Position numbers and translations under genes: made by a program
Notes under the pieces: generated by a model
Database searches by the model: none
The model's input: the letters and a program-made list of their open reading frames with translations, nothing else
What the model was told of the DNA's origin: nothing
Assembly: GCF_013306565.1 (NCBI RefSeq)
Contig: NZ_PZPO01000002.1
Span: forward strand, 136,501-200,500
Length of the DNA stretch: 64,000 bases
Direction: 5' to 3'
DNA from: Hyphomicrobium sulfonivorans
GTDB taxonomy: Bacteria > Pseudomonadota > Alphaproteobacteria > Rhizobiales > Hyphomicrobiaceae
Part shown: one piece after another, positions 54,708 to 58,603 of the stretch
How the letters are laid out: every line of letters begins with the position of its first letter
Numbering within the stretch: position 1 is the stretch's first letter

Positions 54708-55094
54708 ATGGCCCGCATTCTCCTTGCCGACGACGATGCATCGACGCGCGATCTGGTGCGGCGCGCGCTGGAGGCCGATGGCCACAGTGTGCTGGTCACG
54801 CAGGACGGCGCGGAGGCGCTGGAGCAGTTGCAGGCTGGCGGCGGCGGTGCAGGCGGGAAGGCCGGCGGGAATACGTTCGATGTGCTGGTGAGCGATGTGG
54901 AGATGCCGCTGCTGGACGGCATCTCGCTGGCCGAGCACGCGCTGAAGCAGCCGCAGATGCGTGTGCTGCTGATGTCAGGCTTTTCCGAGCAGCTCGATCG
55001 CGCCCGCGCGCTGGCGGGCACGAAGCTGGCGGTGATTTCAAAGCCGTTCACGCTTGAAGATGTGCGTGCGGGGGTGAGGCGGCTGTTGGGTTAG
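54708..55094 (+). CDS. cpdR: Single-domain response regulator, CpdR-like
   Basis: The 128-residue receiver has the acidic pair in LLADDDAS, the phospho-acceptor Asp in LVSDVEMPLLDG, the Ser/Thr in LLMSGFSEQ and Lys in VISKPFTLEDV, with no output domain. CpdR controls ClpXP-dependent proteolysis in the cell cycle; in relatives it lies next to hpt as here. A Gly-rich insert (GGGGAGGKAGG) at residues ~44-54 is unusual. The start is ATG 54708. Confidence 0.85.
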   Translation: MARILLADDDASTRDLVRRALEADGHSVLVTQDGAEALEQLQAGGGGAGGKAGGNTFDVLVSDVEMPLLDGISLAEHALKQPQMRVLLMSGFSEQLDRARALAGTKLAVISKPFTLEDVRAGVRRLLG

Positions 55095-55212
55095 TTATCG
55101 GCGCTTTCCGCCAACTCGGTCGACAGACATCCACAGTATTTGCTGTTCGCGGCTATCAAAATTGATGGATAGACGCTCTGATTGTGCTTGGCGAACGATT
55201 CGGGTGGCGCAA

Positions 55213-56544
55213 ATGCAGCTAGCACTTTTACCGCTTTCAGACCTCGTAGTGAATCCGCACAATGATCGACACGGTGAACTCACGGATGAGAGCACTGCTG
55301 TGGCGTGGCTGTTGTCACACCGAGAAGAACATATGCGAAATTTAGCTAGCGATATCGTAGCTCAAGGAGGAATATTTGAATCACCGCTTGTTATGCTACA
55401 GGGCCGCAAACACATCGTTTATGACGGAAACAGGCGTGTAACATGTTTGAAGCTGCTTGCTAATCCGAGTGCCGCGCCAACACTAGAACTTCACAGGTTC
55501 TTTGAAAAGTTGCGCGGCAACTGGCAGGGACCTTTCCCAGAAGCGATTAAGTGTCAGGTCGAGGATGACCGGGAAAGGATAGACAAGATCCTGTTTCGCC
55601 GACACACAGGATCGCAGTCAGGCGTTGGTCAGAGCGACTGGGATGCAGCTGCGAAGCAGAATTTCATTTTACGGACCGGTCGCGGTTCGGGAACCCTCGC
55701 CGCGGGGATAGAAAAGAGGCTGGTATCAATGGGGGCCGTTGCGGCTGAAGGGGATCTGCCTCGATCCAACTTAAATCGGCTTCTCTCATCTGAGGAGCTG
55801 CGCAAACTTGTTGGAGTTTCTTTTGCTAATGGGAAGCTTCGCTTTACGGCGACGCCAGATAAAGTGCTTAGGGTTCTTGATCGGATTGCACAAGACTTAA
55901 TGACTAAGAAGGTTGTGCTGAGCCACATTTGGAATAACGAAGGTAAGCGCGCGTATCTTTCTGAGTTGCGAGATGAGGGATTGCTTCCTTCTAAGGAAGA
56001 CGAACTTTTACAGCCAGTCTTGTTTAATAGCGCTCCGCCAATAAAACGGGCGCAGCCTCGCTCGAGGCCAATGTTGGTTCAGCCTCGTTCGACGTTAATC
56101 CCACATGAGATGAATAATGCGATTTCTTGGACAAACGCGACAATTCGTTTGAAAGAAATTTGGAATGAGCTCCAGCAGCTGCATGTTGAGCGCTATCCGA
56201 ATTCTGTTGGGATAAGCCTTCGCGTTTTTCTTGAGCTCGCTGTAGATCACTACCTTCGAACTAATCCCGGTGCAGGCGCGGGGGAGCACGATAGGTTGGC
56301 GAAGAAGGTAGAACGGTCGGCGCTCCATTTGGAAACTGCGGGTTTGATCTCGCAAAAGTACATGAAGGAGATCCAGCGTTTTGCGAACGGTGACGAATTA
56401 ATTTCGACGTCAGCAATGCACAGGTACATTCATTCTCTAACATACGCCCCATCTCCACGACATTTGATGGCGGTATGGGACACTCTGTCAGAGTTTCTGA
56501 TTCAATGTTTGAATACTAAACGGGCGCAGCTGCAGGTCGCATAA
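55213..56544 (+). CDS. ParB-like nuclease-fold protein with helical C-terminal domain
   Basis: The 443-residue protein starts with a ParB/Srx-like domain: LSDLVVNPHNDR, GIFESPLVML and VYDGNRRVTCLKLL (DGNRR at 71-75), where ParB-type NTPase/nuclease sites lie. A middle region and a helical C-terminal domain (~300-443: IWNELQQLH, ISLRVFLELAVDHYL, SALHLETAGL, YIHSLTYAPSPRHL) follow. That C-terminal pattern occurs in defence- or mobile-DNA-associated proteins, but I cannot name a system. Base composition is AT-richer than neighbours. An ATG at 55165 is a longer start. It is not part of a parAB locus. Confidence 0.75.
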   Translation: MQLALLPLSDLVVNPHNDRHGELTDESTAVAWLLSHREEHMRNLASDIVAQGGIFESPLVMLQGRKHIVYDGNRRVTCLKLLANPSAAPTLELHRFFEKLRGNWQGPFPEAIKCQVEDDRERIDKILFRRHTGSQSGVGQSDWDAAAKQNFILRTGRGSGTLAAGIEKRLVSMGAVAAEGDLPRSNLNRLLSSEELRKLVGVSFANGKLRFTATPDKVLRVLDRIAQDLMTKKVVLSHIWNNEGKRAYLSELRDEGLLPSKEDELLQPVLFNSAPPIKRAQPRSRPMLVQPRSTLIPHEMNNAISWTNATIRLKEIWNELQQLHVERYPNSVGISLRVFLELAVDHYLRTNPGAGAGEHDRLAKKVERSALHLETAGLISQKYMKEIQRFANGDELISTSAMHRYIHSLTYAPSPRHLMAVWDTLSEFLIQCLNTKRAQLQVA

Positions 56545-56566
56545 TTTATGCGCTGGCGTATTAACT

Positions 56567-57250
56567 TCACGCACTCCCAACCCACCCCCTGAACGTAAAA
56601 CCGGCGTAGAACAGCTCGATGTCGGTGAAGTCGGCGTCGCGCAGGATGGCTTCGTCCTCGTCGGGTGAGAGGATCGTCAGTTGTTGGGCGATGGCGGCGC
56701 GGGCGGCTTCGGCCTTTTCCGCATCGACGCCCGACGCAGTCGCGAACGCTGAATAACGCTGCAGCCACAGTGCGCGCTGCGCCTCACTACCCGGAATGGA
56801 AAAGTGCGCGACGACGAATGGCGCGCCGGGCTTCAGGCGTCGGCGGACCTCGGCGGCTGTGCGGCGGCGCTCCTCCACATCCAGAAAATGCATCGTAAGC
56901 AGACACGTTGCGCCGTCGAACGGGCCTTCGGGCGCGTCATCTATGGTGCCGCGGTGGAGGCGGATGCGCGCCATGTGCGGGGCGGCCACCTGCTCCGCCA
57001 GGGCCAACATTTCCGCTGACGGATCAACGCCGTCGAAGGTCCAGTGCGGGTGGGCGTCGGCGAAGCTTTTGAGTTCGAGGCCGCCGCCCGCGCCGAGCAC
57101 CAGCACGCGGCCGGTGGGGCCGATGCGCTCGGCCAGCAGCAGGCCGGCCATGCGTTGCATGCCGGTGTAGCCGGGCACGATGCGCGGCGGGCCTTCGGTG
57201 TAGCGCGCGACCGCCTGCGGATCGGAGAACGCGGTGCTGGCGCTGGTCAT
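56567..57250 (-). CDS. Class I SAM-dependent methyltransferase
   Basis: From ATG 57250 (AGGAGAA upstream) the product has 227 residues. Motif I VLVLGAGGGLELKSFAD, the acidic residue in FDGVDPSAEMLALAE, and CLLTMHFLDVEERRR fit the methyltransferase fold; the layout is typical of small-molecule methyltransferases. The substrate is unknown. A GTAACA-N5-TGTTAC palindrome lies 70 bases upstream, hinting at repressor control. Convergent with the ParB-like gene. Confidence 0.85.
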   Translation of the reverse strand: MTSASTAFSDPQAVARYTEGPPRIVPGYTGMQRMAGLLLAERIGPTGRVLVLGAGGGLELKSFADAHPHWTFDGVDPSAEMLALAEQVAAPHMARIRLHRGTIDDAPEGPFDGATCLLTMHFLDVEERRRTAAEVRRRLKPGAPFVVAHFSIPGSEAQRALWLQRYSAFATASGVDAEKAEAARAAIAQQLTILSPDEDEAILRDADFTDIELFYAGFTFRGWVGSA

Positions 57251-57319
57251 GGCGGGGTTCTCCTGCTGCTTGCGTGCGTTGCGGTGAATGGGCCGGGTGC
57301 GGTGGCGTCGGCAGTTGAC

Positions 57320-57336
57320 GTAACAATAAATGTTAC
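57320..57336. promoter_or_regulatory. Inverted repeat, candidate operator of the methyltransferase gene
   Basis: GTAACA and TGTTAC flank ATAAA, 70 bases before the methyltransferase start. Size and sequence resemble TetR-family operators. No regulator gene is next to it. Confidence 0.5.
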
Positions 57337-57416
57337 ATGACGGGGCGAGGGTCAAGGGCAGCAGTGTGGGCAAGGCGCACGGGGGCAAGGTGGTGGCGAT
57401 GTCAGGGAGCGCGCGG

Positions 57417-58442
57417 CTAACCGCCGGTGACGCTCATGTGGCGGGCGACGGAGGGGCGGCCAGCGCGGCGATCGATGACGAAGTCGTGGCCCTTGGGCTT
57501 CAGCAGCATTGCTTCGTCGATGGCGGCGTGCAGCGCGGCGTCGTTCGATCCGGCACGCAGCGGCTCGCGCAGATCGACAGCATCTTCCTGACCCAGACAC
57601 ATGAACAGCGTGCCGGTGCAGGTGAGGCGGACGCGGTTGCAGCTTTCACAGAAGTTGTGCGTCATCGGCGTGATGAAGCCGATGCGGCCGCCGGTTTCGC
57701 GTACGCGGACATAGCGCGCGGGGCCACCGGTTTTGTAGGGGATGTCGTCCAGCGTCCAGCGGTCGAGCAGGCGCGCGCGCACGATGGAGAGCGGCAGATA
57801 TTGGTCGAGGCGATTGCCGTCGACTTCGCCCAGCGGCATCGTTTCGATGAGGGTGAGGTCGTAACCGCGCCCGTGCGCGAAACGGATGAGATCGTCGATC
57901 TCGTCCTCGTTGGTGCCCTTGAGCGCGACCGCGTTGAGCTTGACCTTGAGCCCGGCTTCGCTGGCGGCGTCGAGCCCCTGCAACACGGTGTCGAGGTTGC
58001 CCCAGCGGGTGATGGCGCGGAAGCGATCGGGCTGCAGCGTGTCGATGGAAACGTTGATGCGCTCAACGCCGGTGGCCTTAAGCTCGCGAGCGAAGCGCTT
58101 GAGCTGGCTGCCGTTGGTGGTGAGCGTCAGCTCCTCGAGCTTGCCGGAATCGAGGTGGCGTGAGAGCGCCTGAAACAGCGACATGATGTTTTTGCGCACG
58201 AGCGGTTCACCGCCCGTGATGCGCAGCTTGCGCACGCCCCGTTCGACGAAGGCGGTGCAGACGCGGTCAAGCTCCTCCAGCGATAGCAGGTCGCGCCGGG
58301 GCAGGAAGTTCATGTTCTCGGACATGCAGTAGACACACCGGAAGTCGCACCGGTCGGTGACGGACACCCTGAGGTAGGTGACCGCGCGGCCGTAACGATC
58401 AATGAGCTCTGGCTGTGCCTGAGTTTTAGCTGGCTGACCCAC
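57417..58442 (-). CDS. moaA: GTP 3',8-cyclase MoaA
   Basis: This radical SAM enzyme starts molybdenum cofactor synthesis. The N-terminal cluster motif is CDFRCVYC, the C-terminal cluster Cys are in [14 protein letters not shown], and the protein ends with the essential Gly-Gly. A GTG start at 58442 gives 341 residues, the usual length; an ATG at 58577 would add 45 residues that look non-coding. It shares the region with mobA and mobB. Confidence 0.93.
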
Positions 58443-58603
58443 GGCTTGTGGTACGCTCCGAGGCTTAGGTGTGAGGCCGGTTGGCCTTTCGCTTATGGAT
58501 AAATGGTACGGGCCTGTCGGGCAACCCACGCCGCACCGGACCGTTATGAAGATTGGGGCGGTTGAGCAAGTGATCAAGGCCGCCGCGCCGGGGTGGAGCG
58601 GTG

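Follow-up and report, generated by a model that had tools for sequence, protein, structure and literature searches.

What does a ParB-like gene do when it stands by itself among housekeeping genes, in a segment clearly richer in A and T than its surroundings? This question is raised by an intact open reading frame (ORF) of 443 amino acids at 55213-56544 on the forward strand (ATG start, TAA stop) of a 64,000-nucleotide stretch of Hyphomicrobium sulfonivorans DNA, here called the window. The initial annotation had listed the gene as a possible acquired defence or DNA-processing gene and perhaps a stand-alone system. On balance we favour the reading that it was acquired horizontally as a single gene and represents a form of PD-λ-5_A that lacks the methyltransferase, with anti-phage defence as its most likely role. 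The gene is not a PD-λ-5 system, because the defining part of that system, the B methylase, was tested for and is absent; it is best named a methyltransferase-less variant of PD-λ-5_A, and we refer to it and its close relatives as solo genes.

Family and predicted domains

The protein matched the PADLOC profile PDLC03998 (PD-Lambda-5_A) with an E value of 7.2e-78, residues 3-431 aligning with positions 4-462 of the 466 in the profile. PD-λ-5 was obtained from a functional screen in Escherichia coli and has tested anti-phage activity; the authors worked with a host from which the mrr-containing region had been removed (PMC9519451). This full-length match bears out the suspected link to defence at the level of homology, and the solo gene very probably has a defensive role. 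The protein also matched phrog_9592 of PHROGs (E = 1.2e-44), a family without assigned function. Sequence searches of Pfam, NCBIfam and the PDB yielded nothing convincing for the 443-amino-acid protein, and no relative was found in single-sequence scans of genome contigs and viral contigs. M1 was kept in 7/7 aligned clade members, indicating that the ATG at 55213, rather than an upstream TTG, is the likely start.

Structure prediction with AF2, using 76 sequences (mean pLDDT 90.7, pTM 0.57), modelled a ParB-type N-terminal domain and a HEPN-like C-terminal domain joined by a helical middle part. The N-terminal ParB/Srx nucleotide-binding domain (residues 1-139; 55213-55629) had its best VIA-align match in 7bnr_A, the Myxococcus xanthus ParB with CTPγS (Z 10.5; root mean square deviation 2.0 over 95 residues, 19% identity). 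The DGNRR motif, already pointed out in the initial annotation, lies within it at residues 71-75 (55423-55437), and G72, N73, R74 and R75 were invariant in the 76 aligned relatives. The predicted helical middle part (residues 140-272; 55630-56028) holds the invariant W143 and R189. The C-terminal part had been described as helical and was predicted so with high confidence; residues 305-440 (56125-56532), which include the invariant R337 and H407, matched AbiA (8oz7_A, Z 8.5), HepT (6m6u_H, Z 8.2), an MNT-paired HEPN protein (7ae2_A, Z 8.1) and Csm6 (8jh1_B, Z 7.0). The catalytic motif of HEPN RNases is RX4-6H. Its arginine was not found in the window protein, where S400, A401 and M402 precede H407. 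Thus, the question of whether nuclease or NTPase site residues are lacking received a divided answer: the residues of the ParB pocket are invariant while the HEPN catalytic arginine is missing, which leaves nuclease or NTPase chemistry unproven. A combination of DUF262 with DUF1524/HNH was not found; Pfam searched at E ≤ 10 gave one unrelated sub-threshold match.

The missing methylase and the solo clade

PD-λ-5 has been described as a two-gene, prophage-borne system resembling restriction-modification, and its second component, PD-Lambda-5_B, is a DNA adenine methylase, as found beside the A gene on a Kosakonia plasmid. The genome that holds the window (3.55 Mb, 14 contigs, listed as 100% complete) contained no match to the corresponding profile PDLC04018 at E ≤ 0.001. 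In a first set of 27 loci plus the window, the methylase was missing beside the window gene and at nine close relatives, at about 44% identity or above, and present at 14 distant ones; the remaining four loci were a Vibrio phage (L012) with an HNH gene and three loci (L060, L061, L062) with a weak match or none. In the Vibrio phage (L012:1-3281), the place of the B methylase beside the PD-Lambda-5_A gene is taken by the HNH gene, whose annotation is that of a type II restriction enzyme.

A larger set was assembled from close relatives (39-48% identity) in named species-level genomes, of which 80 were kept of 118 found. None of these 80 loci, 49 of which have an intact ORF and more than 9 kb on both sides, contained a PD-Lambda-5_B homologue within the sequence covered (tblastn with 10 B proteins, E ≤ 1e-8), so that all kept relatives of the solo branch are methylase-free. 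By the same measure, a B homologue was present at 76 of the 80 loci that a family-wide scan had taken from viral contigs. The four exceptions were three A genes cut by the contig end (L210, L231, L245) and one solo-clade fragment (L190), which was the only solo-clade member on viral contigs against 119 relatives in that scan. The initial annotation had suggested a stand-alone system, and this view is upheld by the absence of PD-Lambda-5_B both from the genome and from the vicinity of all 80 close relatives. Methylases of another type beside the clade genes were considered with CcrM searches and crude motif scans, and nothing general emerged: ccrM lies beside the solo gene at one locus (L113), C5-type ORFs occur at 665 bp (L136) and about 6 kb (L150, L183), the N6/N4 motif scan was crude, and a few PADLOC methyltransferase models matched single ORFs near solo genes. 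At L113 (10001-12524) the solo gene converges directly on ccrM, whose product is 63% identical to CcrM of the window genome; this was the only such case among the 80. No published description of a methylase-free PD-λ-5_A branch was found in open-licence PubMed Central.

A tree was built from 85 proteins, of which 33 were solo, 49 methylase-linked and 3 other; they were drawn from 26 of 76 usable genome loci, 38 of 75 usable viral loci, 20 earlier sequences and the window. All 33 solo sequences formed one clade in it, with an SH-aLRT support of 100. This clade was nested in a set of 41 sequences together with eight methylase-linked viral ones (support 98). As the tree was rooted at the midpoint only, the methylase was probably, but not certainly, lost in this clade and not gained later elsewhere; a single loss is the simplest though not the only reading. 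Seventeen positions were conserved both in 76 solo proteins and in 75 proteins from viral contigs (N17, R19, L44, V69, G72, N73, R74, R75, P85, H131, G133, G137, G139, W143, R189, R337 and H407). A further 27 were fixed in the solo clade and rare in the viral-contig proteins, the window protein departing at two of them. Among these are N14 (D in 92% of the others), E26 (Q in 84%), D71 (E in 79%) and S185 (T in 93%), and several adjoin the ParB-type motifs. Any long branch shows some such sites, and the clade-specific residues are therefore suggestive only.

The solo clade is under purifying selection: dN/dS, the ratio of nonsynonymous to synonymous substitution rates, was finite for 11 of the 14 closest pairs computed and lay at 0.05-0.17 in these. 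Proteins that are 86-88% identical occur across orders (Roseivivax, Methylopila and Bosea; Mesorhizobium and Allosphingosinicella), indicating horizontal transfer. The solo genes were found singly on chromosomes or megaplasmids, with a G+C content (GC) below that of their flanks at 77/80 loci (median difference 0.10). Essentially, the clade is confined to Alphaproteobacteria: by rank or title 74 of the 80 loci are alphaproteobacterial, five belong to unranked Proteobacteria, and one is labelled Oceanobacillus. In a sample of 385 genomes of the class, six had a match of at least 331 bits, five of them (own genome included) of at least 494 bits and one intermediate at 331 bits. In a sample of 398 genomes of the phylum, full-strength matches occurred only in the gene's own class (G1040, G1154 and the own genome), and one genome of another class had a weak match of 66 bits. 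Broken copies were seen at L007, L053 and L058; at L007 (6001-8160), from Azospirillum ramasamyi, the solo gene is split by an IS5-like element. The record labelled Oceanobacillus sp. HTM 045 (L112) likewise has a broken A gene; its genome encodes a CcrM that shares 62% identity with the one in the window genome, and it is probably a mislabelled or mixed assembly.

The insertion site between cpdR and moaA

The gene occupies most of a 1485-bp segment (55095-56579) that interrupts the alignment with the sister species, which stops at 55094 and resumes at 56580. The gene has a GC of 0.498 and the segment of 0.500, compared to 0.642 and 0.638 in the two 5-kb flanks, and across the whole 64 kb, examined in 50-base steps, no 1332-bp window had a GC as low as that of the gene. 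The AT-richness noted in the initial annotation is thus evident. The left border of the segment is a CpdR-like receiver gene (54708-55094, forward strand; Response_reg, E = 4.4e-17), syntenic in 7/7 congeners, and the ancestral right neighbour of cpdR, by synteny in the congeners, is moaA (57417-58577, reverse strand). The order ftsE-hpt-cpdR/moaA is kept in all seven, and by this comparison the gene does break a housekeeping order, as had been proposed. The gap between cpdR and moaA measures 7 bp in G005, 18 bp in G004 and 18 bp in G007, is about 800-1000 bp with a gene of 249-250 amino acids in G002, G003 and G006, and is larger in the sister species G001. In the latter, whose flanks are about 92-94% identical to the window, the same junction (L083:7422-9145) holds a different AT-rich segment of 1724 bp (GC 0.46), which encodes PDC-M53A (E = 1.8e-27) and PDC-M53B (E = 2.7e-29), PADLOC candidate defence proteins.

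The window gene itself had no match in any of the seven congeners searched, and a match in 4 of 100 genomes searched, its own counted. The check on close strains therefore did not reveal the gene at the same locus in all relatives. Absence from 7/7 congeners, AT-richness and a junction that is empty or occupied by other cargo in relatives together indicate that the gene was acquired. Integration directed by a tRNA or by repeats was considered and set aside: the window contains no integrase and no tRNA, and no convincing repeats flank the insert. Some congeners have no insert at the small cpdR/moaA junction, while the two closest species each hold candidate defence cargo of a different kind there; this makes it a clean example of a one-cassette defence site outside islands and prophages.

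At the right border lies a gene for a small-molecule-type S-adenosylmethionine-dependent methyltransferase (56567-57388, reverse strand; Methyltransf_25, E = 2.1e-15), which is also present in G001 and absent from the junction in the other six congeners. The initial annotation had correctly named it as a neighbour. We rejected it as a partner of the solo gene because it is of a small-molecule type (Methyltransf_25/11), is convergent, and stands beside different cargo in the sister species. The sister species carries a second insert between this methyltransferase gene and moaA (L083:9851-13199), with ArsR-like and SRPBCC-like genes (assigned by eye), a gene of 209 amino acids of unassigned family and a gene for a 478-amino-acid ParA/CbiA-type ATPase.

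Possible roles, mechanism and comparison with known systems

Several observations weigh against a defensive role. A role deduced by homology may fail once a partner has been lost, and the prophage system of E. coli is the only one for which phage protection is known (PMC9519451). Most solo loci lie among housekeeping genes rather than in defence islands. ORFs within 1.5 kb of solo genes (130 of 172) were compared with ORFs 6.5-9 kb away (130 of 196) at PADLOC E ≤ 1e-10; the near ORFs matched 96 families and the distant ones 14, counts that refer to families rather than genes and include pieces of the broken A genes at L112 and L189. In favour of a defensive role, this suggests some clustering of solo genes with defence genes; at the same time many of the near ORFs belong to housekeeping genes, and no PADLOC or Pfam family recurred in more than 3 of the 130. 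The HEPN-like Z scores of about 7-8.5 are below the safe level of the tool, which warns that such values may reflect a common helical arrangement. An arginine at -5, -6 or -7 relative to H407 was present in 1/76 solo proteins and in 1/70 methylase-linked sequences having the histidine; since it is absent in both groups alike, textbook HEPN RNase chemistry, and with it a role of the domain as an RNase effector, is doubtful.

Some of these features would also fit a degenerate or domesticated remnant, that is, an A gene without its methylase that now acts as a non-defensive DNA-binding regulator or as a partition-like protein of a plasmid or phage. The ParB-type domain, the missing catalytic arginine and the frequent location alone among housekeeping genes agree with such a remnant. 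Yet the initial annotation rightly placed no parA beside the gene within the window, and partition of a chromosome or plasmid was rejected since, despite the ParB fold, none was found among the neighbouring ORFs. Strong purifying selection, sporadic presence (6/385 genomes of the class at 331 bits or more), transfer between orders, the AT-rich cargo signature, the lack of parA and the exchange at the same site with the candidate defence pair PDC-M53A/B in the sister are better explained by a mobile defence gene than by a domesticated regulator, so that we consider a remnant unlikely. Very improbable, in our estimate, is an addiction module in which a ParB-HEPN toxin is held in check by a small overlooked partner. 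A short downstream gene does occur in some members, including families of 227 amino acids (7/80 loci) and 205 amino acids (4/80), counted at any position. However, neighbour clustering revealed no conserved second gene: the commonest family was present at 10/80 loci, mostly on the opposite strand, and the window gene has none. The family of about 227 amino acids lies downstream on the same strand at L121, L165, L167, L169, L172, L173 and L176, shows HEPN-like motifs by eye, and may be an accessory gene of one subgroup. At L111, L119, L122, L124, L129 and L157, the solo gene is directly followed at its 3' end by a convergent gene of 156 amino acids that looks GIY-YIG-like on visual inspection.

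A further explanation, quite improbable in our view, starts from the host. GANTC methylation by the resident CcrM would mark DNA as self; for that reason the solo clade would have shed its methylase, and DNA lacking this mark would be restricted. This would account for the single loss of the methylase, for the coordinated change around the pocket of the ParB domain and for the limitation to one class despite transfer between orders, and it would amount to a one-gene, restriction-like immune system of Alphaproteobacteria that reads the cell-cycle methylation of the class itself. Consistent with this, a single methylase-free clade is essentially limited to the class and yet moves between orders, residues around the ParB pocket (N14, D18, E26 and D71) changed together, and at L113 the gene converges on ccrM. 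CcrM was present in 79 of 80 distinct carrier genomes (the own genome, 50/50 and 28/29; L144 and L177 lie in one genome), a rate above that of the class sample (275/385, or 231/315 good genomes), in which the five full-strength solo genomes (at least 494 bits) and the 331-bit one all have it. The binomial probability is 9e-11 if calculated naively, but with assumed base rates of 0.90 and 0.95 it becomes 0.002 and 0.09, respectively, the latter not significant. The class sample is rich in small genomes and the CcrM search scored at most five candidates per genome; the association is therefore treated as weak. Moreover, replicated GANTC sites stay hemimethylated until the onset of cell division (PMC3973325). 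Limitation of horizontal transfer to one class often has other causes, and the arrangement at L113 is found at 1/80 loci. CcrM as self mark is compatible with the data, if weakly supported.

For the favoured role in anti-phage defence, a mechanism can be outlined tentatively: detection of phage nucleic acid would fall to the nucleotide-bound ParB domain together with the helical middle part, and the HEPN-like domain would execute or gate the response. The ParB domain would bind nucleotide and, together with the helical middle part, nucleic acid, acting as a sensor or clamp. Once foreign or replicating phage DNA is bound, the HEPN-like domain would change, dimerise and block the infected cell or the phage genome. 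Self-protection without a dedicated methylase could be achieved via resident methylation or, more likely in our judgement, via the sensing of an infection-specific feature; this feature could be a phage product or modified DNA of the kind recognised in type IV restriction. T-even phages have modified DNA. PD-λ-5 acts more strongly on these phages, and this, together with the ParB-like sensor of GmrSD-type enzymes, makes an infection- or modification-specific trigger more likely; such a trigger would explain why no self methylase is needed. If the solo gene protects, PD-λ-5_A tells self from non-self without a methylase of its own, and a comparison of the two branches would be a direct route to what PD-λ-5_A senses.

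Among known proteins, those with HEPN domains (HepT/MntA, the C-terminal domain of AbiA, Csm6) may resemble the window protein in the helical fold of residues 305-440, and they have a conserved histidine in a late helix in common with it. Unlike in these, the arginine of RX4-6H is missing from nearly all of the family sampled, and no MNT partner was seen. With the CTPase-clamp proteins ParB and Noc, the window protein shares the N-terminal fold and a GxRR-type motif. The motif of ParB/Noc proteins is GERR, whereas the window protein has GNRR, no parA beside it, and a HEPN-like C-terminus where these proteins usually have a dimerisation domain. GmrSD, BrxU and SspE are type IV enzymes with a DUF262 ParB-like domain. 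The likeness consists in a ParB-like sensor domain fused to another domain in one defence protein, and matches of the window protein in BFVD are annotated as GmrSD N-terminal domain; in contrast to these enzymes, the window protein has no DUF1524/HNH domain reported by Pfam, and its C-terminus is HEPN-like. The closest comparison is with PD-λ-5 itself. The solo branch differs in being without the B methylase, in forming a separate clade with N14 for D, E26 for Q and D71 for E, and in being almost absent from viral contigs, its members being single genes on a chromosome or megaplasmid. The two are alike in full-length homology of the A protein (E 7e-78), in the same order of domains, in the invariant N17, R19, G72-R75, H131, W143 and R189, and in the nearly invariant R337 and H407.
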